From Clostridia bacterium (GTDB lineage Bacteria > Bacillota_A > Clostridia > Christensenellales > CAG-138), in contig JAFZJT010000249.1 of the NCBI GenBank assembly GCA_017553815.1, positions 1 through 34,921 on the forward strand: DNA of 34,921 nucleotides, given 5' to 3'. Both the position numbers and the translations under genes were made by a program. This document shows, piece after piece, positions 2-23,880 of this stretch; within the stretch, counting starts at the first letter, position 1, and every line of letters begins with the position of its first letter. A model generated the notes under the pieces. That model saw only the letters and a program-made list of their open reading frames with translations, made no database searches and was not told where the DNA came from.

Positions 2-973
2 TGTGAGTGCGGCGAGAAGCCATCCTTTGCTCCGGGCGAGCAGTTTGAGTACTCCAACACCGGCTACTGCCTGCTGGCACAGATCGTGGAGACCGTTGCA
101 GGCGTTCCCTTTGAGGACTTTCTGCGGGACAACATTTTCGAACCTGCCGGGATGCACGCGACGCGTGTCTACCACCGCCGGATGGAAAAGATCACGGTTC
201 CGAATCTGGCCTGGGGGCTGTCGCTGCCGTTGGGCTCCGACCGCTACACGCTCCCGGATGACCTGCCAGGGGAGAGCGCGGCCGTTACCTGCGACGGCGC
301 GAACGGGGACGGGCTGGTGCACTCCAACATCTTTGACCTGTTCCAATGGGACCGGGCACTGCGTGCGGAGAAGGTGCTTACGAAGGAGGAACAGATGCTG
401 ATGGCCACCCCCGGACGACTCAACAACGGGGAAATCGGCATCGACAAGGACGAGGACGATGATCCCGATTACGGCTACGGCTTCGGCTGGGACGTGCTGG
501 ATGATCCTGATTTCGGCCTGATCGTCTGCCACAGCGGCGGCTGGCCCGGTTATTATAACTGGTACGAACGCTTTGTGGACGCGGACCGCGTTTTGATCTG
601 GCTGCGCTGCCGCGACGCGCGGGACGAGCGGGCCTGGCAATCCTTTTCCAGGGGCTTGACGGCAATCACGAGGGACAGAGAACCGGAGAGAGTCCGCAGC
701 ATCGAAGAACTCGCCGTTCAGAACCCGGACAGGAGCGGCTGGGATGAGTTCTGCGGGAAATACGACTATGCCATCGGGGACTTCCGTATCGAAGAGATCT
801 TCCGGAAAGACGGCGAGATGTACGCGCTGGCAAACGACGACGACAGGGCAATTGAGCTGCGGCTCTACCCGTTGGGAGAGAAGACCTTTGGAATAAAAGA
901 CCTTGATGCAGACCTGACCCTGAGCGACGGCACGCTGACGCTGTATGGCGTGACTGGTAAGAAAACAGAATAG
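2..973 (+). CDS. Serine hydrolase of the beta-lactamase / class C PBP-like family, 5' partial
   Basis: The reading frame is open from the left edge, so the start and the N-terminal SxxK motif lie outside the window. The first visible residues include a PGEQFEYSNTGY stretch, the Y-S-N motif of class C beta-lactamases, D-alanyl-D-alanine carboxypeptidases and related esterases. Further on, CHSGGWPGY matches the H/K-x-G third active-site motif region. The remaining roughly 100 residues look like the beta-rich C-terminal domain often attached to such hydrolases. Members cleave beta-lactams, D-amino peptides or esters; the substrate cannot be told from this fragment, and the signal peptide, if any, is not visible. 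The gene ends in TAG, followed by a short GC-rich inverted repeat (983-989 with 999-1005) without a clear T-tract. The family assignment is firm; the exact enzyme is not. Confidence 0.85.
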   Translation, partial: CECGEKPSFAPGEQFEYSNTGYCLLAQIVETVAGVPFEDFLRDNIFEPAGMHATRVYHRRMEKITVPNLAWGLSLPLGSDRYTLPDDLPGESAAVTCDGANGDGLVHSNIFDLFQWDRALRAEKVLTKEEQMLMATPGRLNNGEIGIDKDEDDDPDYGYGFGWDVLDDPDFGLIVCHSGGWPGYYNWYERFVDADRVLIWLRCRDARDERAWQSFSRGLTAITRDREPERVRSIEELAVQNPDRSGWDEFCGKYDYAIGDFRIEEIFRKDGEMYALANDDDRAIELRLYPLGEKTFGIKDLDADLTLSDGTLTLYGVTGKKTE

Positions 974-1396
974 GATTCTTGTAGGGGAGGGTGAGCTACT
1001 CCCCTGCGGCATTATCGCAAGGAAGCTCCTGTATACCAGCCCCGTTGATGTATTCGAACGTATGCCACAGGCTCCCGATTGCCACACCTTGTTATATCCT
1101 GTTGTGAGTTAATCTTGCCCTTGCTTTTGCCCTTATGAGCGGCGCGGGCGTTATAGAAACGGTGTAACATTTCATAAAGGGATTCGGTGAGCAGATTACA
1201 TAAAATCCTTTGTTTTCAGCGGTTTCAGAAGATTTCATTCAAGTCCTGTAATCACCGGCGAATGTCTATGATTTCGGGGATTTCAAATTCCCGTTTGCCA
1301 TAGCGCAACAATAATATTTCGTAATGAAATGAGGATCGGTCGCGCAAGGGAGCATCGGCGCTGCCGACAAATCCTGTTCAAGAAGAGGGAAAGCGA
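974..1396. other. Gene-free stretch with a possible decayed coding fragment
   Basis: There is no convincing gene in these 423 bases. A 7-bp inverted repeat, AGGGGAG/CTCCCCT (983-989 and 999-1005), follows the hydrolase stop. On the minus strand two short open stretches look coding-like: one of about 65 codons over roughly 1010-1215 (containing SLYEMLHRFYNARAAHKG) and one ending near 1247 with RYGKREFEIPEIIDIRR before a stop. Neither has a start with a ribosome binding site, and I do not recognise a family. They may be remnants of a mobile-element gene, but this is only an impression. Just before the next gene, AGAGGGA at 1384-1390 is that gene's ribosome binding site. Confidence 0.4.
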
Positions 1397-2266
1397 ATGA
1401 AAGGTAAGTTTTTTGCAATAGAAGAAGTCAAGGCGTTTGAGCTTATCGAGCGCACGAGCAAAATGATGCCCGCGCACAGGGGCATCGACAGGCGCTGCTT
1501 TATAGTTGGTGAATACGCGGTGCTGTCCACGTCAAGATTGAAGCTGAGAAACGTTGACGTGCGCGATGACGAGCTTTCGCATCTAAACGATATCATCGAA
1601 AAGCTCCTGCTTCTTGAGTGCGAGGGCGTGAACGTTGTGCCGATACTCGGCTATTGCTATGACCCCGACTCGATGGACGGCGAGGGCTTTTTGATCGAGC
1701 GCCGCGCAAGGGGCGCGGAGATGTACGACGATGCGATCATCTGCAAATTCGAGGCTTGGACGCAGGATAATGACGAGGTTTATCTTAAAAGCGATACCGA
1801 TGCCGCCGAGTACATAACGAACAGAACGCGCGTTCTTGCGCTTGCTCCGCAGGCGCATTACGATAAATTCATCGCCGATATGCTGGAGATCATGAAGCGC
1901 GATATCCTTATCGACTTCATGGGAAAGAGCAATTTTTTCTATGACAGTGAGGCGGGTTTTCAGTTCATAGACCTTGATACGCATACGGACAGCCATTACG
2001 GGCTTTGCGAAGACACGATCTCGAACGAGGAGGTTGCCGCCATCGGCGGCTTTGCTCCCTGCCATTTTGCGGAGGGAACTGCGGCTTTTGCGCCGATCGC
2101 GCTCGTTCCGAGCGCCCTTGCCGAGCTTGGCGAAGCGCGCCTTGCCGCGCTTGCCGAAAGCAACAGCCTTATCTTTGAAAAATGCCTTGCCGCATTGAGA
2201 GCAAACGGCGTTTCGGATGCGGTTTTGGATAAAACGCTTCAAAGGCTGAAGGTTTTCGGGCGGTAA
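1397..2266 (+). CDS. Unrecognised 289-aa protein with kinase-like (APH/choline-kinase-like) features
   Basis: I do not recognise a named family. The protein has no signal peptide or membrane segment. Its middle part reads like the hinge of a phosphotransferase fold: a strand VVPILGYCYDPDS, then GEGFLIERRARGAEMY (residues about 80-110). Residues 169-194 (ILIDFMGKSNFFYD, then GFQFIDLD) resemble the catalytic-loop and metal-binding D segments of protein-kinase-like enzymes. Aligned on N179, the usual catalytic Asp position falls on F174, with D173 one residue early, so activity is uncertain. A closely related copy forms the C-terminal part of the GNAT fusion gene at 2835-4238, with the same motifs. 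The start is ATG with AGAGGGA six bases upstream. A GNAT gene follows after 31 bases, so an operon is likely. The kinase-fold reading is inference. Confidence 0.75.
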   Translation: MKGKFFAIEEVKAFELIERTSKMMPAHRGIDRRCFIVGEYAVLSTSRLKLRNVDVRDDELSHLNDIIEKLLLLECEGVNVVPILGYCYDPDSMDGEGFLIERRARGAEMYDDAIICKFEAWTQDNDEVYLKSDTDAAEYITNRTRVLALAPQAHYDKFIADMLEIMKRDILIDFMGKSNFFYDSEAGFQFIDLDTHTDSHYGLCEDTISNEEVAAIGGFAPCHFAEGTAAFAPIALVPSALAELGEARLAALAESNSLIFEKCLAALRANGVSDAVLDKTLQRLKVFGR

Positions 2267-2297
2267 ACTTAAAACGTCCGCGCATATCGGAGGTGCG

Positions 2298-2768
2298 ATG
2301 AAAAAAACCGTTAAAATAAAGCGAATAGAGGATTCAAGCGAGCTCGAGCTGATGACAACTTGGATGCACGCCTGGTGGGGCAAGCGTGAAAACTACACCC
2401 GCGAAGCTGTTCGCTGCTGCATGGAGCACAGCTTGAAGCGCGAGGGGCTGCCGCAGACATACGGGCTCTACCTTGACGGGCGGCTGATCGGGATGTATCA
2501 ATTCACCTGCGCCGATCTCTTCGTTCGACCGGATATCTACCCTTGGCTTGCAAACGTTTATATAGACGAAGCGCACCGCTCCAAGGGATACGGACGGCTG
2601 CTGCTTGGTTCGGTTCAAAAGAGCGCCGCCGAATCGGGCTTGGCCGAGCTCTATCTTTTTACCGAGCACGGCGGGCTTTATGAAAAATTCGGCTGGGAGT
2701 TTATTGAGAGCATAGACACCCATCTTGAGCCGAGGATGCAGAGGCTTTACAGGCTCAAGGTTCGGTAA
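2298..2768 (+). CDS. GNAT family N-acetyltransferase
   Basis: The 156-residue length is normal for a single-domain GNAT enzyme, which transfers acetyl from acetyl-CoA to an amine. The acetyl-CoA pyrophosphate-binding motif A is clear as ANVYIDEAHRSKGYGRLLL (about residues 86-104; R/Q-x-x-G-x-G/A form), preceded by the strand GLYLDGRLIGMYQF. The late segment ELYLFTEHGGLYEKFGWEF matches motif B, with the typical FYEK-GF ending. The start is ATG with CGGAGGT seven bases upstream. The gene lies between the kinase-like gene and the GNAT-kinase-like fusion on the same strand, so it likely belongs to the same transcript. The acceptor substrate cannot be inferred; modification of a small molecule, an antibiotic or a protein N-terminus are all possible. 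Confidence 0.88.
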   Translation: MKKTVKIKRIEDSSELELMTTWMHAWWGKRENYTREAVRCCMEHSLKREGLPQTYGLYLDGRLIGMYQFTCADLFVRPDIYPWLANVYIDEAHRSKGYGRLLLGSVQKSAAESGLAELYLFTEHGGLYEKFGWEFIESIDTHLEPRMQRLYRLKVR

Positions 2769-2834
2769 AGCGGCGTGGCTGCGACAAATAATTACTGTGG
2801 GAAAATGACGGCAAAAGAACGGAGGGTGCGGAGA

Positions 2835-4238
2835 ATGGACGGTATGAAGCTTATCTCGCCGACGATGGAATACGATGAGAGCATACAGGCCTATCGAAGG
2901 GAATTTCTTGAATGCGGCGATTCGATGGACGGCACGAGCAGGCTCCGGCGTTTTGACAATACTAAGGATTGGCTCGATTATCTGGATTCGAACGGTTCCC
3001 TGCCCGCTTCCCAGTACGTTTTCGTTCGCGAAGAGGACGGCAAGATCGTTGGAATGCTGGATATTCGGCTTTCAACCAATGATTTTCTCGAACGCTTCGC
3101 GGGTTACGTCGGCTACTCCGTTTGCCCGAGCGAAAGGCGCAAGGGCTATGCAACACAGATGCTCGGCATGGCGCTTCCGATCATGAAGCGCCTCGGGATG
3201 GAGAACGTGCTTATCACCTGCTATGAGGGAAACGAAGCCAGCCGCAAAACCATCATCAATAACGGAGGCGTATATGAATCGACCGTGTATTGGCAGGAGC
3301 GCGATGCAAATCTTGAAAGATACCGGATCGATCTGAGCGGGATCAGGCCGAATAAACAGCGAAAAACTATGTGCGGCAAGTTTTTTGCAATAGAAAGAGA
3401 AAAAGCGCTCGAGCTTATCGAGCGCACGGAGCGTATGATTCCTGCGCACAGAGGCATCGACAGGCGCGCTTATCTTATCGACGATCACGCCGTTTTGGCA
3501 ACCTCGAGATTGAAGCTTAGAAACGTTGACGTGCGCGACGACGAGCTGCGTTATCTTGACGAGCTGATATTAGAGCTTGTCCGGCTGCACGGGGAGGACG
3601 TAAACGTCGTTCCGATCCTTGGATATTGTTACGATCCCGACTCCTCCGACGGAGAGGGCTTTTTGATCCAGCGCCGCGCGAAAGGGGCTGAGATGTATGA
3701 CGACGCGATCATCTGCAAATACGAAGTCTGGACGCAGGCAAACGATGAGATCTATCTCGAAAGCAGCGCCGACACCGTGGAATACATAGTTTCGCGCACC
3801 CGCGCTTTGGCCGAAGCTCCGCAGGAGCATTACAACAAATTCATTGCCGATATAATGGCTATCGTGAAGAGCGAAATTCTTATAGACTTCATGGGAAAGA
3901 GCAACTTCTTCTATGACGAGGAGGAAGGCTTTCAGTTCATCGACCTTGACTCTCATACCGATTCTTACTACGGCTTGAGCGAAAGCAGCGTATCCGTCGA
4001 AGAATTGGCGGCCTTGGGAGGCTTTGTACCCTGTCACTTCGCGGAGGGAACGAAGCGCTTCGCCCCGGCTGCGCTCGCTTCCGACGCCGTTCGCGAGCTT
4101 GGCTCTGCGCGCCTTGCCCTGCTCGCCGAGAGCAATCTGCAGGTCTTTGATAAATGCCTTGCTGCTATGAAGGCAAACGGCCTTTCGGACGAGATTCTGA
4201 ATAAAACCGTTTCAAGCATAAAGGTCTTCGGGCAGTAA
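2835..4238 (+). CDS. Fusion: GNAT acetyltransferase domain + kinase-like domain
   Basis: I start this gene at ATG 2835, which has GGAGGGTGCGGAG just upstream. The frame is open further upstream to GTG 2775, but that start would overlap poor initiation signals. Residues about 1-165 are a GNAT domain of the RimJ/RimL-like type, with motif A as VGYSVCPSERRKGYATQML and a late NEASRKTIINNGG segment. After a short linker, residues about 179-467 are a full-length paralogue of the protein at 1397-2266: GKFFAIE start, MIPAHRGIDRR, VVPILGYCYDPDS, ILIDFMGKSNFFYD and FQFIDLD are shared. The internal ATG at 3369 has no visible ribosome binding site, so one fused polypeptide is more likely than two. A terminator hairpin follows 45 bases after the stop. 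The two joined activities suggest a shared substrate, but none can be named. Confidence 0.82.
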   Translation: MDGMKLISPTMEYDESIQAYRREFLECGDSMDGTSRLRRFDNTKDWLDYLDSNGSLPASQYVFVREEDGKIVGMLDIRLSTNDFLERFAGYVGYSVCPSERRKGYATQMLGMALPIMKRLGMENVLITCYEGNEASRKTIINNGGVYESTVYWQERDANLERYRIDLSGIRPNKQRKTMCGKFFAIEREKALELIERTERMIPAHRGIDRRAYLIDDHAVLATSRLKLRNVDVRDDELRYLDELILELVRLHGEDVNVVPILGYCYDPDSSDGEGFLIQRRAKGAEMYDDAIICKYEVWTQANDEIYLESSADTVEYIVSRTRALAEAPQEHYNKFIADIMAIVKSEILIDFMGKSNFFYDEEEGFQFIDLDSHTDSYYGLSESSVSVEELAALGGFVPCHFAEGTKRFAPAALASDAVRELGSARLALLAESNLQVFDKCLAAMKANGLSDEILNKTVSSIKVFGQ

Positions 4239-6035: not shown

Positions 6036-7115
6036 TTACGGAGCCCTTGTGGGATCGGGCGGAGCGCTCGTAGGTCCTTCGGTGTTTCTCGCCTCGGGCG
6101 TCTGCTCCGGCTCCGGCGTTACCTCGATATTTGGCGTTGCCTCTGGCGGCTGAGTGGCAGGCGGTTGGGTCGGCATGGGATCGACGTAGACCGGGTAGCA
6201 GATCGCGAAGACGCGGTGCGCCGAGGTGCCATAGTAGGAGCTGTAATCGTCCTTGCAGGTAATCAAAGTCAGCCTTCTTGAACCGCCGGTGTTCATGATC
6301 TCGCTCGGAACGTTGTTAAACATATGTTCCTCGATCCTGCCAACGACGTAGTAGGCAAACTGCCCGTTCTGCATCTCGACTATTACGCTGTCGCCTATTT
6401 TAAGATTGTCCCTGACGATCTTGAAGTAGCCGAACTTGCCCTTATGCCTTATATGCCCCGCGATAAGCGTGTTGCCTCCGCGCACGGGGTCGCCGCCGTA
6501 CATAAACCAGCCGGCGATGTAGGCGGACTGCACGACCGCCATCTGCCCGTATTGGTTGTAGCCCACGGGCTGAACGGGGCAAACGGGGCATTCCGATTCA
6601 TAGCCTACGAAATAAAGATTCTTCGGCTCGTACGGATTATAGGGCGTCGGCTCCGGGTCGCCGTAAACGGGCTTGGGCGGCGTGTAGTTGTCGCCCGGGA
6701 TCGGGGTCGTCGGGGGCTGCGTCACACCGGGCACCGCGGTCGGCATCGGCGGCTTCGTGCTCTCGGGATCCTTGGGGTTCCAGTAGCCGTTGAGAATGAT
6801 CCATTCCGTCCACGCGTCCTCGTCCGTATATCCCCACGGAAGCGGCGTTGTATCAGGATCCGCTGTCGGAAGCGGCGGCATGGTGGGCGCAGGAATCGGG
6901 GTTTCGTTGTTCACGACCTCGTTGTACTTTTCTTCGATTTTATTGCTGCAGCTCTTGATCCACAGCGTTTGATCATTGATGATGATGTAGATGCCCGCAA
7001 GTATCAGCACGGCGGACACCGCGTAGAGTATCCTGTTGAAGCGCTTGTTTTTCTTTCTTCGCGCTTCCCTCTCCTCGGGCGTGAGGCTCGAGAGGTCAAC
7101 CTTTTGTTTTTTCAT
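6036..7115 (-). CDS. Sortase with long proline-rich stalk and tail
   Basis: This 359-residue membrane-anchored transpeptidase has one N-terminal helix (about residues 30-48) after a Lys/Arg-rich cytoplasmic end, giving a type II topology. Residues about 72-165 are a Pro/Thr-rich stalk. The sortase core follows, with catalytic His221 (TLIAGHIRHKG), Cys287 (LTLITCKDD) and Arg301 (SAHRVFAICYPV). Sortases cleave LPxTG-like motifs and attach proteins to the wall or build pili. The tail after residue 310 is again Pro/Thr/Glu-rich, which is unusual for a sortase. The subclass is not certain; class D- or E/F-like housekeeping types are candidates. No pilin or LPxTG gene lies next to it, but the protein at 21268-23880 carries a VPPTGD signal. 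A strong promoter is visible at 7205-7233. Confidence 0.9.
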   Translation of the reverse strand: MKKQKVDLSSLTPEEREARRKKNKRFNRILYAVSAVLILAGIYIIINDQTLWIKSCSNKIEEKYNEVVNNETPIPAPTMPPLPTADPDTTPLPWGYTDEDAWTEWIILNGYWNPKDPESTKPPMPTAVPGVTQPPTTPIPGDNYTPPKPVYGDPEPTPYNPYEPKNLYFVGYESECPVCPVQPVGYNQYGQMAVVQSAYIAGWFMYGGDPVRGGNTLIAGHIRHKGKFGYFKIVRDNLKIGDSVIVEMQNGQFAYYVVGRIEEHMFNNVPSEIMNTGGSRRLTLITCKDDYSSYYGTSAHRVFAICYPVYVDPMPTQPPATQPPEATPNIEVTPEPEQTPEARNTEGPTSAPPDPTRAP

Positions 7116-17799: not shown

Positions 17800-18984
17800 A
17801 TGAAAAAATTCATCTCCCTCATGCTTGCAGCTATTCTCGCAGTAAGCGCCTTCTCCTTCGCTTCCGCGAAGACTGTTCCCGAAGACACCCGCGCCGGCTT
17901 TGGCATGAGCATCATGGGCTTCAGCACCACCGACCTCGAGGGCAACCCCGCGGACAGCTCCCTTCTCGACAACGCAGAGATTCATTTCATCAACTACTGG
18001 GCAACCTGGTGCGGCCCCTGCGTAAACGAAATGCCGCACATCAACCAGCTCTATCAGTATACCCTCGATAATCCCGACTACGGCGTACAGGTGCTCGGCG
18101 TTATCTCCGAGAGCAACGGCTGCACCCCCCAAACCGCGCTCGCATTCCTCAAGCAGCGCGGCTACGATTGGCTCAACATGCGCAAGGACAATGTGCTCGG
18201 CGCAGTGTTCAACACCTGCCCCTATGTTCCCCAGACGCTTATCGTGACCCGTGAGGGACGCGTTCTCGACCATATCGTCGGCTCCTTCCCGAGCTATGCG
18301 ATGCTCAAGGAATACGTTGATATGTGGCTCGACGCCTACCATAACCATATGGACGAGACCTGCACCGTTACCTTCAAGAACCTTGCCAACGACGAGGTCC
18401 TTGCGACCATCGAGGTTCCCTTCGGCGGCGTTATCGAAATGCCCGAAGCGCCCGCTATCGAGGGCTACACCTTCAACGGCTGGCAGATCGATCCCGAGAG
18501 CAATACCTACGATCTTGACGAGAATATCCTCGCAACCTATTACGACCCCTACTATCTGCTCGCTATGGGCGACTGCACCATCTACGGCACCTACAACGTT
18601 CAGAGGTTCCTCGTTCGCTTCTACGACAGCATCACCAACAACCTCATCGGTCAGTCCATGGTCGATTACGGTCAGGCAGCGACCGCGCCCAATCCCCCCG
18701 AGCATGAGGGCTACGTTTTCATCGGCTGGGATCAGGATTTCAGCTTCGTTACCGGCAACATGAACGTATACACCGTTTATCAGCAGGGCACCAGCCCCTT
18801 CGTTCCCGGCGATATGGACGGTAACGGCATGGTTTCCACCGCGGACGCGATCACCATCCTGCACATGGCCATGGGCCTTCAGGAGATCACCGACGCTAAC
18901 CTTCCCGTTGCGGATATGAGCGGCAACGGCTCCGTCGGCATGGAAGACGCGATCATGGCTCTGCGCACCGCGCTCGGTCTGTAA
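17800..18984 (+). CDS. Secreted TlpA-like thioredoxin with two InlB-type repeats and a C-terminal dockerin
   Basis: Residues 1-23 are a signal peptide (MKKFISLMLAAILAVSAF, cleaved near ASA-K). Residues about 35-180 are a TlpA/ResA-like thioredoxin fold with the active site WCGPC (70-74) and the cis-Pro segment TCPYVPQTLIV (139-149). Two Listeria-Bacteroides (InlB B-type) repeats follow (about 188-265 and 270-328; EGYTFNGW and EGYVFIGW). Residues 336-394 are a type I dockerin-like pair of calcium loops, DMDGNGMVSTAD (338-349) and DMSGNGSVGMED (372-383), each followed by a helix. The enzyme should act outside the membrane as a thiol-disulfide reductase, and the dockerin could tether it to a cohesin protein. 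ATG after AAAGGAAAA. It heads a group with a second TlpA protein, a CXXC protein and a membrane Fe-S protein. Confidence 0.92.
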   Translation: MKKFISLMLAAILAVSAFSFASAKTVPEDTRAGFGMSIMGFSTTDLEGNPADSSLLDNAEIHFINYWATWCGPCVNEMPHINQLYQYTLDNPDYGVQVLGVISESNGCTPQTALAFLKQRGYDWLNMRKDNVLGAVFNTCPYVPQTLIVTREGRVLDHIVGSFPSYAMLKEYVDMWLDAYHNHMDETCTVTFKNLANDEVLATIEVPFGGVIEMPEAPAIEGYTFNGWQIDPESNTYDLDENILATYYDPYYLLAMGDCTIYGTYNVQRFLVRFYDSITNNLIGQSMVDYGQAATAPNPPEHEGYVFIGWDQDFSFVTGNMNVYTVYQQGTSPFVPGDMDGNGMVSTADAITILHMAMGLQEITDANLPVADMSGNGSVGMEDAIMALRTALGL

Positions 18985-19044: not shown

Positions 19045-19965
19045 ATGCTTCTCAAGAAAACCATCGGCATTACGCTCTGCATACTGCTTGCGTTCACGCT
19101 GATCTTAACGGGCTGTGCGCACCCCTGGAGGATCGCGCTCAACCCCAATCCGACCACCGCGGATCCCGGGCTCGTCACAGGCAAGCCTGCGGATACCGAT
19201 GAACCCGCGACCGATGCACCGACGGACGAGCCGACCGAAGAGCCCACGGAGCAACCCTCCGAGGAACCCAACGACGAGCCGACCGAGCAGCCCACGGATG
19301 AGCCCGAGGAGACTGTCGCACCCGAGACCGAGCAGCCCACCGGCAGCGAGCCTCCCGAGACCGGCAGCACGACCAACCCTCCCGCGAACACCACCGCGCC
19401 CTCGGTAACGAACACTCCCACCGCGGCAACGCCCACTCTGGCAAACACTCCGACCCCTGCGCCGAATCCGACGCCGACCCCCAAGCCCACGCCGACGCCC
19501 ACGCCCGTGCCGACTCCGACGCCCGCGCCCACGCCTTCGCCGGATATCCCGAACTTCTCCTCGAAGGCGATAAACGGCAGTCAGGCGACGTATGACAACA
19601 GCTTCCTCTACGCAAACAGGCTGACTATGGTCAACGTGTGGTCCACGACCTGCGGCCCCTGCATCGCGGAGATGCCGCATTTCCCGTCGCTTGAGGCGCG
19701 CTACGGCTCGAGGGGCTTCAAGATCCTGAGCGTGCTCGGCGATTCCGAGACCCCCGGCGCGATCCCCACCGCGCTTAGCATCATCAGCGGAATGAACTTC
19801 AATATCCCCGTTATCAGAAACAATGCTTCCGTTGCGGCGGCATTCCCCGCTGCGGCGTATCCGATGACCTATTTTATCGACTCCTACGGACGCATCCTGC
19901 AGAGAGTACCCGCCGCAAACTCTTTTGAAGGCTGGTGCCAGATCATTGACGGTCTGCTCCCCTGA
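19045..19965 (+). CDS. TlpA-like thioredoxin lipoprotein with long Pro/Thr/Glu-rich linker
   Basis: The signal peptide ends in the lipobox LTGC with Cys24, so the protein is lipid-anchored on the outer face of the membrane. Residues about 35-165 are a low-complexity linker, first Glu-Pro-Thr-rich (DEPTEEPTEQPSEEP) and then Pro-Thr-rich (PTPTPKPTPTPTP). It holds the C-terminal thioredoxin fold well away from the membrane. The active site is TTCGPC (Cys203 and Cys206), with a cis-Pro region AAAYPMTYFID and VVRN/GDSET-type strands. It lacks the InlB repeats and dockerin of the preceding gene. ATG after AAAGGA; 60 bases after the preceding gene and 15 before the CXXC gene. It is likely a thiol-disulfide reductase; its substrate is unknown. 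Confidence 0.93.
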   Translation: MLLKKTIGITLCILLAFTLILTGCAHPWRIALNPNPTTADPGLVTGKPADTDEPATDAPTDEPTEEPTEQPSEEPNDEPTEQPTDEPEETVAPETEQPTGSEPPETGSTTNPPANTTAPSVTNTPTAATPTLANTPTPAPNPTPTPKPTPTPTPVPTPTPAPTPSPDIPNFSSKAINGSQATYDNSFLYANRLTMVNVWSTTCGPCIAEMPHFPSLEARYGSRGFKILSVLGDSETPGAIPTALSIISGMNFNIPVIRNNASVAAAFPAAAYPMTYFIDSYGRILQRVPAANSFEGWCQIIDGLLP

Positions 19966-21267: not shown

Positions 21268-23880
21268 ATGAAAAAAATCATTTCTCTGCTTATCGCCGTC
21301 GCGATGATCGCCGTTCTCGGCGTTCCCGCGCTTGCAAGCGAGCAGCTCCCCATCTTCGGCACCGAATTCGTTCGTGTTGAAAACGAACCCACCGTTGAGT
21401 ACGACGAGTGGGAGATCCCCTACAACGTCTGGACTCCCGTGGCGGAGAACACCGCCATCGCGGTCGGCGATACCGTCACTATGGTTCTCACCTATGCGGT
21501 TCCCGCAGAGGTAGAGGGCTATGACGCGCGCCTCGTCGGCAGCATTGAGTATCTGACCGAGATCGAGGGCATCGACGAGATCGAACTCGTTGAGGCCTAC
21601 GGCTGCGATCCCCGTCTCAACTGCGACTATGAGATCGGCATCTGCGTCCCCGTTCCCGGCGAATACGCCAACATCGAGCACGACGGCACGACCCTAAAGG
21701 TCATGGCCGAGCTCGGCAGCAATGTCACCGTCGTCGTTCGCGGCACCGCGACCGCCGACCACGTTATCGGCAGCATGAATGTTACCATCGGTCAGCGCAG
21801 CTTCCCCGCTTATTTCTACGAGAAGGTCGTCGACAAGACCGGCGAGGGCAGCTACAACGTGCATTGGTCCGACTTCACCGCGGTTCAGAAGCGCTCGGTC
21901 GAGTGCCGCCCCGACAATATCTTCGTCGGTCTGAACAACCACTACTACCGCATGGCAGCAGGGCGCGGCGCTTCCGCCTTCATCCCCGTTGACGAGAACT
22001 TCGAGGATTGCGGCGACGCCATCGATAACGGCAGCGAGCTTTTCGCGACCCTCTCCGATATCTTCGAGACCGTGCATGCGGAATTCGGCATCGACTATAA
22101 TCAGGTAAGCTTCACCGATGAGGACTTCATCGGCAGCGGCGAGCACTACAGCTTCGAGTATCCCTACGACTTCGGCGCAAACGGCGACGCTGAGCCCACC
22201 GAGGAACCCGCTCCCGCAGACCCGACCGAGGAGCCCGCTCCCGCCGATCCCACCGATGAGCCCGCGCCTGCCGATCCCACCGAGGAGCCCGCACCCGCGG
22301 AGCCCACTGCTGCGCCTCACTACGGCGCCGACATCAACAACGGCGAAGTGCGCGTTGTTCTCAGCACCGATAAGGAAGTATACGAAGGCAGCGATCCCAT
22401 CGTTGTTACCGTTTCCGCAACCTGCGTTGGCGACGCCAACGTAACCGATATGCTTATCGTCATCGACCCCGTCGCCGGTTACGAACTGCAGGCGGGCAGC
22501 TCCCTTCAGGGACGCTTTGGCACCAGTGCGGGCGGAGAAACCGTTCATTTTTCCGCAACATTTATTCCCAATGACGGCGGCATCGTTCCTCCCACCGGCG
22601 ATAACACCATCGGCATGATTGCCGCGATCGTCATCACCCTCGGCATCGCTGCATTCGGTTTTGCTGCGATCTCCGGCAGAAAGAACCGCCGCTTTACCGC
22701 CACGATGCTTCTCGCCGTTATGATTCTCTCCGCTGCAGCAGGTCTTGGCGCGGTCATGGCCGATACCCTTGGCGCAGGCTCCCCTGTTCTTCTCAACAAG
22801 ACCGTTTCCGCACGCGGCGCTTCCACCAACATTTCCGCAACCGTTCATTACAGCGTTGCTGAACCCACCTTTGGCAGCGTAAACGGCCGAGTATTCGGCG
22901 GCATCGAGAACCCTGTTGTGCTTGAGAACGCAACCGTTACCGCATACAGCACGGATGCTCCAAACACCGTGGCTGCCTCTGTAACCACCGATGCAAACGG
23001 CTATTACGCTTTGAGTCTTGTGAGTGGAAGCTACAGGCTCGTTGCAGAGCATGAAGGCTACCTGCCCTGCACCGTTTACGACGTAAATGTACGTGAAGAT
23101 GAGATGGTCTATGTTCAGAACATTTATCTCATCCCCATCGAGCAGGAAGGTCAGTACTTCGATATCTATGGCATTGTTCGCAATGCGCTGACCAATCAGC
23201 CCATCGAGGGCGTTTCCGTCAAGCTCAGGTATGGATGGAATACCTACTCCGGTTCCATCGCTTCCGATATGGCAGGCGAGCCCGCAGTGACCTCCACCGA
23301 TGAAAACGGCGCTTATACCCTCAACAACCTTGCCGGCTACTACACCGCCGAGTTCAGCAAGGAAGGCTTCGTTACCGGCTATGTGAACGTGTTTGCAGCC
23401 GAGAATCAGGGCTCCCAGGATGCCGTTCTCACCCCCATCCTTTCTAACAACGAATACCGCATCGTTCTTACCTGGGGCGAAAATCCCCGCGATATCGATT
23501 CCCATGTTGAAGGCAAGCTCACGAACGGCAGCAACTTCCACGTCTACTTTTCCCACAAGAATCAGATGGACGGCGATGTGCTCGTTTGCTCGCTCGACGT
23601 TGATGATACAACGAGCTACGGTCCCGAGACCATCACGCTCAACCCCACTGTGACGGATCCGTATTACTACTACGTCCATCACTATGCGGGCAGCGGCAGC
23701 ATCTCCGATACCTCCAACGCTATCGTTAAGGTCTACTGCGGCGATGCCCTCATCCACACCTTCAACGTGCCTGCCAATCAGGGTGACGGCAAATATTGGA
23801 ACGTATTCGCGCTTGTCGACGGCGAGATCGTTGTAAGAAACACCATCACCTCTTCCCCCGATACCGGCTACGCCAACTGA
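21268..23880 (+). CDS. Large secreted two-part surface protein with an internal sortase-like signal
   Basis: I start this 870-residue protein at ATG 21268 after AAGGAG; residues 1-24 are a signal peptide (KKIISLLIAVAMIAVLG, ALAS). Residues 25-310 are an unrecognised exported region. Four PTEEPAPAD-like repeats span 22192-22305. A beta-domain (about residues 355-435, like DUF11/Big-type modules) precedes VPPTGD (440-445). A helix and RKNRR (471-475) follow at once, the exact layout of a wall-sorting signal. The chain then continues with MLLAVMILSAAAGLGAVMA (480-498), which looks like a second signal peptide or membrane segment. Two carboxypeptidase-regulatory-like domains follow (GSVNGRVFGG... 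and YGIVRNALTNQPIEGVSVKL), then a YfaP/DUF2135-like domain (LTWGENPRDIDSHVEG). No terminal sorting signal is seen. Function unknown; two formerly separate genes may be fused. Confidence 0.9.
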   Translation: MKKIISLLIAVAMIAVLGVPALASEQLPIFGTEFVRVENEPTVEYDEWEIPYNVWTPVAENTAIAVGDTVTMVLTYAVPAEVEGYDARLVGSIEYLTEIEGIDEIELVEAYGCDPRLNCDYEIGICVPVPGEYANIEHDGTTLKVMAELGSNVTVVVRGTATADHVIGSMNVTIGQRSFPAYFYEKVVDKTGEGSYNVHWSDFTAVQKRSVECRPDNIFVGLNNHYYRMAAGRGASAFIPVDENFEDCGDAIDNGSELFATLSDIFETVHAEFGIDYNQVSFTDEDFIGSGEHYSFEYPYDFGANGDAEPTEEPAPADPTEEPAPADPTDEPAPADPTEEPAPAEPTAAPHYGADINNGEVRVVLSTDKEVYEGSDPIVVTVSATCVGDANVTDMLIVIDPVAGYELQAGSSLQGRFGTSAGGETVHFSATFIPNDGGIVPPTGDNTIGMIAAIVITLGIAAFGFAAISGRKNRRFTATMLLAVMILSAAAGLGAVMADTLGAGSPVLLNKTVSARGASTNISATVHYSVAEPTFGSVNGRVFGGIENPVVLENATVTAYSTDAPNTVAASVTTDANGYYALSLVSGSYRLVAEHEGYLPCTVYDVNVREDEMVYVQNIYLIPIEQEGQYFDIYGIVRNALTNQPIEGVSVKLRYGWNTYSGSIASDMAGEPAVTSTDENGAYTLNNLAGYYTAEFSKEGFVTGYVNVFAAENQGSQDAVLTPILSNNEYRIVLTWGENPRDIDSHVEGKLTNGSNFHVYFSHKNQMDGDVLVCSLDVDDTTSYGPETITLNPTVTDPYYYYVHHYAGSGSISDTSNAIVKVYCGDALIHTFNVPANQGDGKYWNVFALVDGEIVVRNTITSSPDTGYAN

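Follow-up and report, generated by a model that had tools for sequence, protein, structure and literature searches.

A conserved membrane hairpin resembling a sorting signal and a signal peptide is predicted to split an immunoglobulin-like domain in exported bacterial proteins

A sorting-signal layout in the middle of an exported protein

The window analysed here, a stretch of 34,921 nucleotides of contig JAFZJT010000249.1 from a Clostridia bacterium assembly (GCA_017553815.1), encodes an 870-residue protein at 21268–23880 (features are on the forward strand unless stated), in a single unbroken frame of 870 codons whose ATG at 21268 is preceded by a Shine-Dalgarno-like AAGGAG. As the initial annotation had recognized, a complete wall-sorting layout lies mid-protein in this uninterrupted frame and is followed by a second signal-peptide-like segment. 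It comprises a VPPTGD sorting motif (residues 440–445; 22585–22602), a hydrophobic segment, TM1 (residues 450–468; 22615–22671), that is helical in the AlphaFold2 (AF2) model, a cationic RKNRR loop visible in sequence and alignment (residues 471–475; 22678–22692), and a second hydrophobic segment, TM2 (residues 477–498; 22696–22761). This hairpin recurs in many relatives, where it appears to interrupt an immunoglobulin (Ig)-like domain, and may form part of a self-splitting surface anchor.

Ahead of the hairpin, the protein has an N-terminal signal peptide (residues 1–23, ending ALA|S; 21268–21336; assigned by eye, hydrophobic window 4–22), an N-terminal domain (residues 24–310; 21337–22197), a PADPTEEPA linker encoded by 4.4 copies of a 27-bp tandem repeat in the DNA (22188–22307), and strands A–E of a predicted Ig-like domain of DUF11/NEW3-like type, placed by the AF2 model and structure matches (residues 351–436; 22318–22575). 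Behind the hairpin lie two strands, F and G, which complete the Ig-like domain in the model (residues 507–530; 22786–22857), and a cargo (22876–23880) assigned from Pfam and homologues, with two CarboxypepD_reg domains and, at the C-terminus, a conserved domain that Pfam does not name. The carboxypeptidase-regulatory-like domains of the initial annotation were thus recovered, whereas its YfaP-like label found no match in Pfam or NCBIfam; the last ~145 residues match neither database, though they are conserved among relatives. The sortase gene that it had also placed in the window is present at 6036–7115 on the reverse strand (359 residues; PF04203, E 7e-12). A database sequence, P0002, differs from the window protein by one residue (S420I) and represents two member sequences on four contigs, one of them possibly the window's own; its near-identity on four contigs argues against a local assembly error in the window.

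VPPTG (residues 440–444) matches the LPXTG-like pentapeptide type used by the host genus, and its recognition by sortase, with an expected cut at T443|G444, is putative. Followed by TM1 and the positive residues 471–475, it has the layout of a sorting signal. Its position departs from the canonical C-terminal one, as 395 residues follow R475; by position the window protein is not a canonical sortase substrate, although it may work like one. The NCBIfam model LPXTG_anchor scores over its cut-off (17.5 vs 15.9 bits, E 0.0048) at residues 190–221 of the 1158-residue relative P0140, and a model of the internal hairpin also picks up sorting signals of the ordinary C-terminal kind, in at least five genomes (G246, G248, G300, G316 and G357). 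Features of a type I signal peptide are present in the sequence RKNRR, MLLAVMILSAAAG, VMA|D, which supplies a positive n-region, a hydrophobic core and an AxA-type site; V496-M-A498|D499 at the end of TM2 is the signal-peptidase-like site of the window protein, with an expected signal peptidase I cut at A498|D499. This unit starts near residue 471 and not at the N-terminus, the usual location of such peptides. In a single comparison (E 4e-4), TM2 of P0128 agreed at 18/41 positions with the signal-peptide-like N-terminus of P0078, a relative without the hairpin. As far as sequence can say, TM1 resembles a sorting signal and TM2 a signal peptide.

Both expected cut sites are conserved

Among 54 non-redundant internal hairpins (<85% identity, gapped recount), TG precedes TM1 in 51 and [AV]xA follows TM2 in 50; at <50% identity (n = 34), each motif is found in 31. 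Random windows of the same length from the same proteins contained TG in 16% and [AV]xA in 23% of cases, and ordinary N-in membrane segments, a small set with some hairpins still in it, carried [AV]xA in 9/31. The hairpin layout is confirmed to lie far above chance expectation. An ungapped rule retained 56 of the 66 hairpins found (TG 53, [AV]xA 52), with near-duplicates such as P0140/P0141 left in. Eleven rows of this count were loci pre-picked for T[G/S], a motif required in choosing the rows of L035–L041, and without them the counts are 42/45 for TG and 41/45 for [AV]xA. P0052 lay outside the hairpin filter.

In an alignment of 19 rows (A2), the Thr of TG and one TM2 Leu are invariant, and the Gly and the Ala before the expected signal peptidase cut, A(−1), are at least 90% conserved. 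A larger alignment (A3, 48 rows) leaves out P0052, P0153, P0155–P0160 and the locus proteins and retains near-duplicates (for example, P0030/P0138, P0139/P0143 and P0140/P0141/P0145). It has Thr in 47/48, Gly in 46/48 and Asp in 41/48 rows, which bears out, for its TGD part, the conservation of VPPTGD among homologues on which the initial annotation had made its proposal depend, together with the TM2 core Leu in 46/48 and A(−1) in 44/48. The remaining four rows (the window protein, P0003, P0056 and P0161) have [AV]xA displaced by one or two residues, the Ala of the window protein lying two columns off. Across the 48 sequences, the distance is 51–61 residues from Thr to A(−1), 6–13 from A(−1) to strand F, and 11–117 from strand E to Thr. 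P127, T129, G130 and A187 of a distant lineage are among eight columns identical in 11/11 sequences. The most conserved positions of the hairpin include those expected for both proteases.

The module recurs with many cargos

Relatives of the window protein were examined among the best 120 of 214 matches. Within the matches listed, the same internal layout was found in 18 proteins besides P0002 (P0003, P0004, P0005, P0010, P0012, P0013, P0014, P0015, P0018, P0020, P0030, P0044, P0052, P0056, P0059, P0067, P0070 and P0098), the layout of P0052 and the second helix of P0010 being assigned by eye. A search scored on residues 1–246 of P0122 only returned 38 proteins, and the hairpin was present in 38/38. 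The order of the module is signal peptide, Ig-like strands A–E, linker, PxTGD, TM1, cationic loop, TM2 ending in AxA, and Ig strands F–G. In relatives, the linker before PxTGD is frequently rich in Ser, Thr, Gly or Pro, and the loop is KKKSGKK-like, followed by a LLSLFLCVAMVG-like helix and a STKAYA|E-like end; the two-strand segment after the hairpin has the rough consensus ISVSxTVxVDGxxLxIxAxVxYD. The cargos behind the module vary and include subtilase, thermolysin M4, VWA, lipase, GH16 and leucine-rich repeat domains, or CarboxypepD_reg plus an unnamed tail. The subtilase cluster P0140 holds 2105 member sequences, and the source label of P0155 is Coriobacteriia.

Two open reading frames (ORFs) carry two complete hairpins each: L036 in G334 (1246 residues; 287–4027, reverse strand), whose protein has no Pfam match above cut-off, and L037 in G423 (1203 residues; 318–3929, forward strand). 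From sequence, each of these apparently predicts three exported pieces, and two hairpins within one ORF can hardly be explained by accident. Over 849 aligned columns, the subtilase cargo of P0030 shares 53% identity with that of P0079, whose signal ends in a lipobox-like LTGC; this likeness makes the module look exchangeable with an N-terminal lipid anchor. Separately, tandem paralogues of a distant hairpin protein were observed at L039:8399–14784 (forward strand) and L040:6709–13063 (reverse strand), with a long protein bearing a C-terminal sorting signal nearby in both genomes.

An Ig-like domain predicted to be split by the hairpin

The AF2 model gave predicted local distance difference test (pLDDT) values of 92–96 in residue blocks 361–430, within strands A–E, and of 93–95 for residues 511–530, after the hairpin. 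In two AF2 models, from different lineages, the strands before and after the hairpin fall into one Ig sandwich. The first model aligns 95 residues of its range 10–184 with TRAP-beta residues 22–118; the second aligns 93 residues of its range 38–233 with the same TRAP-beta domain, and both alignments end in or just past the post-hairpin strands. In these models, strands F–G appear to complete an Ig-like domain begun before the hairpin, a feature that the initial annotation had overlooked. Rows long enough to show both retain strands A–E ahead of the hairpin and the two later strands behind it.

No Pfam family, DUF11 and NPCBM_assoc included, matches the Ig-like stretch of the window protein. 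Among relatives, only P0014 (DUF11, 27.4 vs 24.6 bits) and P0059 (NPCBM_assoc, 27.7 vs 24.4 bits) score over the curated cut-off, and matches below it occur in P0004, P0010, P0015 and the L040 protein. In P0072, P0076, P0078 and P0085, a hydrophobic loop that has no TG motif connects Ig strands E and F where other members have the hairpin; these proteins are a natural control group for the split-domain idea. An isopeptide link between the halves was considered but is not supported: inspection of A3 by eye shows no conserved Lys, Asn, Asp or Glu in strands F–G.

Origin of the fusion and genomic surroundings

Of the 11 genomes of the related genus, nine encode the N-domain (residues 1 to ~345) in an ORF of its own, and its product has an ordinary C-terminal sorting signal in 9/9. 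These signals are VPxTG in 8/9 (exactly VPPTG in two) and PPHTG in one, which identifies the internal VPPTG as the genus's own motif. G433 has an interrupted hairpin gene with internal VPDTG, and the C-terminal signal of the same genome is also VPDTG. That gene (L071:1–1592) is split by a stop with its pieces in different frames, which makes it either a pseudogene or an assembly error.

In the window, the module takes the place of the ordinary ending, with the junction in or near the 27-bp repeat at 22188–22307. In P0003, the same second half (87% identity over 62% of the query) follows a different N-domain and a comparable linker, and a like linker stands before an ordinary sorting signal in L001 and L002 and before the shared half in P0003. 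The repeat and linker are likely the point of domain shuffling. GC content at third codon positions is 0.79 in the N-domain, 0.63–0.68 after the linker and 0.70–0.79 in neighbouring genes, a drop that fits shuffling without proving it. Because the N-domain is separate in 9/11 genomes, its fusion to the module is probably recent. The C-terminal half of the window protein had no match in the sister genomes G001 and G002, in a search run without a positive control.

C113, C119 and C126 of the genus-specific N-domain (residues 113–126; window 21604–21645) are identical in 10/10 sequences; with these cysteines and the neighbours described next, the N-domain may be a wall-anchored redox protein.

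As to its surroundings, the N-domain gene sits near genes for a NapH-like ferredoxin protein, a redoxin and methionine sulfoxide reductase. In the window, a redoxin-like protein that carries Flg_new repeats and weakly matches dockerin is encoded at 17800–18984, with a second redoxin close by at 19045–19965 (the former on the forward strand). By eye, G002 shares the neighbourhood of the window gene: redoxin-like, NapH-like, the counterpart of the window gene, and nucleotidyltransferase.

Distribution

The short model A2 matched 15/391 genomes of the class, not all of them true hairpins. An ORF scan of 12 of these (all except G048, G316 and G327) found an internal hairpin in G334 and G387 only, and at least five of the 15, named above, represent ordinary C-terminal signals, a count for which one of the underlying checks misread the strand of several loci. 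In the family of G334, 6/40 genomes matched and a hairpin was seen in five of the six, G396 being the sixth; in the order of G425, 4/67 matched, and the hairpin carrier G423 was missed. The distribution of the module is patchy and the power of the short model poor. A P0122 search of plasmids matched 23 records, none over 80% of the query, and the five matches listed cover residues 234–389 only. A region search with P0013 returned 4 matches compared with 38 for P0122, probably owing to the low-complexity linker. Sortase genes occurred in 15/15 genomes tested, in five of which the hairpin was seen; as sortases are common in those genomes, this co-occurrence is weak evidence. No description of an internal sorting signal with a following internal signal peptide was found among the matches listed from open-licence PubMed Central (PMC) full text.

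Proposed mechanism and alternatives

We propose, with a probability of about 0.5, that the window gene encodes a single precursor with a self-splitting surface anchor, resulting in non-covalent display of the cargo on the wall through its N-terminus. The N-terminal signal peptide would export the precursor, and the hairpin would insert with RKNRR inside and both halves outside. Sortase would then cut at T443|G444 and link the N-domain, linker and Ig strands A–E to the cell wall, and signal peptidase I would cut at A498|D499, releasing strands F–G and the cargo from the membrane. Strands F–G would finally complete the Ig-like domain, clipping the two products together. The net effect would be a cargo shown on the wall through its N-terminus, which is unattainable with an ordinary C-terminal sorting signal. 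The layout, the motifs and their conservation are observed and the split Ig fold is predicted, whereas both cuts, the wall attachment and the lasting association of the products are inferred. More tentatively, this may be a display device widespread in Bacillota and present in one or more Coriobacteriia assemblies, in which sortase and signal peptidase I yield a wall-fixed receptor and a cargo that plugs into it with its first two strands, so that many enzymes are anchored to the wall through their N-termini, and in which the two-hairpin ORFs would be true polyproteins giving three exported chains.

Some observations lend this proposal no support or go against parts of it. A home-made profile of N-terminal signal peptides, biased to the letters of the family, scored the TM2 site above TM1 in 21/47 only; a few members have no TG or no [AV]xA; and G413 and G387 have VGTG as the neighbouring C-terminal motif but PVTG and PITG internally. 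The members that lack a motif suit a rather unlikely alternative in which the hairpin is never cut and acts as a staple that ties the split Ig domain, and both halves with it, to the membrane. As a membrane element the hairpin is sound, running out-in-out with its cationic loop on the inner side, and the Ig fold can form without cleavage. However, an intact staple leaves unexplained why the hairpin positions conserved most strongly include TG-D and AxA, why the internal motif equals the genus's C-terminal VPxTG, and why P0128 TM2 resembles the N-terminal signal peptide of a relative.

The same TG and [AV]xA evidence would equally serve two cuts that yield independent products in the style of a viral polyprotein, the N-piece on the wall and the C-piece fully secreted and lost, with three products from each two-hairpin ORF. 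We consider this improbable, as the rows long enough to show them retain Ig strands to either side of the hairpin and the models put these strands together. A cut by sortase only, with the N-half passing to the wall and the C-half held in the membrane through TM2, is quite improbable as well. It agrees with the conservation of TG and with the poor signal-peptide score of TM2, but not with A(−1) in 44/48 rows or with [AV]xA in 50/54 hairpins compared with 9/31 ordinary N-in segments (the small set that still includes some hairpins). The initial annotation had suggested just such a designed hairpin: its N-terminal half, cut loose and wall-anchored, is the better-supported part, whereas a C-terminal half staying in the membrane is less likely given a signal peptidase I site nearly as conserved as TG. 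Its other suggestion, that neighbouring genes were fused by a lost stop, has in its favour, like a chimeric assembly, the separate N-domain ORF in 9/11 genomes, but both were rejected as extremely improbable, because the hairpin lies inside the module and away from the N-domain junction, P0003 has the same half behind another N-domain, P0002 repeats the window protein with one difference, and the same arrangement is seen in many other proteins, in which TG, the cationic loop and AxA are conserved at fixed spacing, and twice within one ORF in two genomes.

If the self-splitting anchor is real, the module would attach cargo through the N-terminus, something that sortase does not achieve by itself. 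It would also provide natural examples, in bacteria, of a precursor processed by two different membrane proteases and of a split domain assembling during export; its carriers include proteases, a lipase and VWA proteins. One survey accepted sorting motifs in the last 50 residues only (PMC8286594). Because sorting signals are commonly sought at the C-terminus, proteins built like the window protein would be missed.

Comparison with known systems

The module shares with LPXTG-type sorting signals the VPPTG-D pentapeptide, the hydrophobic helix and the positive residues, and its motif belongs to the family found in the C-terminal signals of orthologues; it differs in lying mid-chain, with 395 residues after RKNRR and a second hydrophobic segment first among them. 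Navarre and Schneewind built SEB-CWS-BlaZ fusions in which an internal sorting signal, introduced by engineering, was reportedly cut and the N-terminal part anchored, while the C-terminal part, lacking a second export signal, is said to have remained in the cytoplasm; unlike the window protein, these were artificial constructs. GAIN and SEA domains are cut inside one domain, and their two chains stay associated. They cut themselves, whereas here two membrane proteases would cut, removing a hairpin of 51–61 residues.

The putative signal peptidase I site, which follows an internal helix at its outer end, has a parallel in LtaS of Staphylococcus aureus, which SpsB cuts between Ala217 and Ser218, between the transmembrane domains and the extracellular part, a cut reported to inactivate the enzyme (PMC11898559). 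The window module differs in pairing such a site with a sorting signal at fixed spacing. LtaS is not known to carry a sorting signal. Finally, the pre-hairpin stretch matches DUF11 (PF01345) or NPCBM_assoc (PF10633) weakly to moderately in some relatives, and the Ig-like fold of the models resembles TRAP-beta and transglutaminase barrels; in contrast to DUF11 and NPCBM_assoc, the domain of the window module is predicted to be split by a membrane hairpin.
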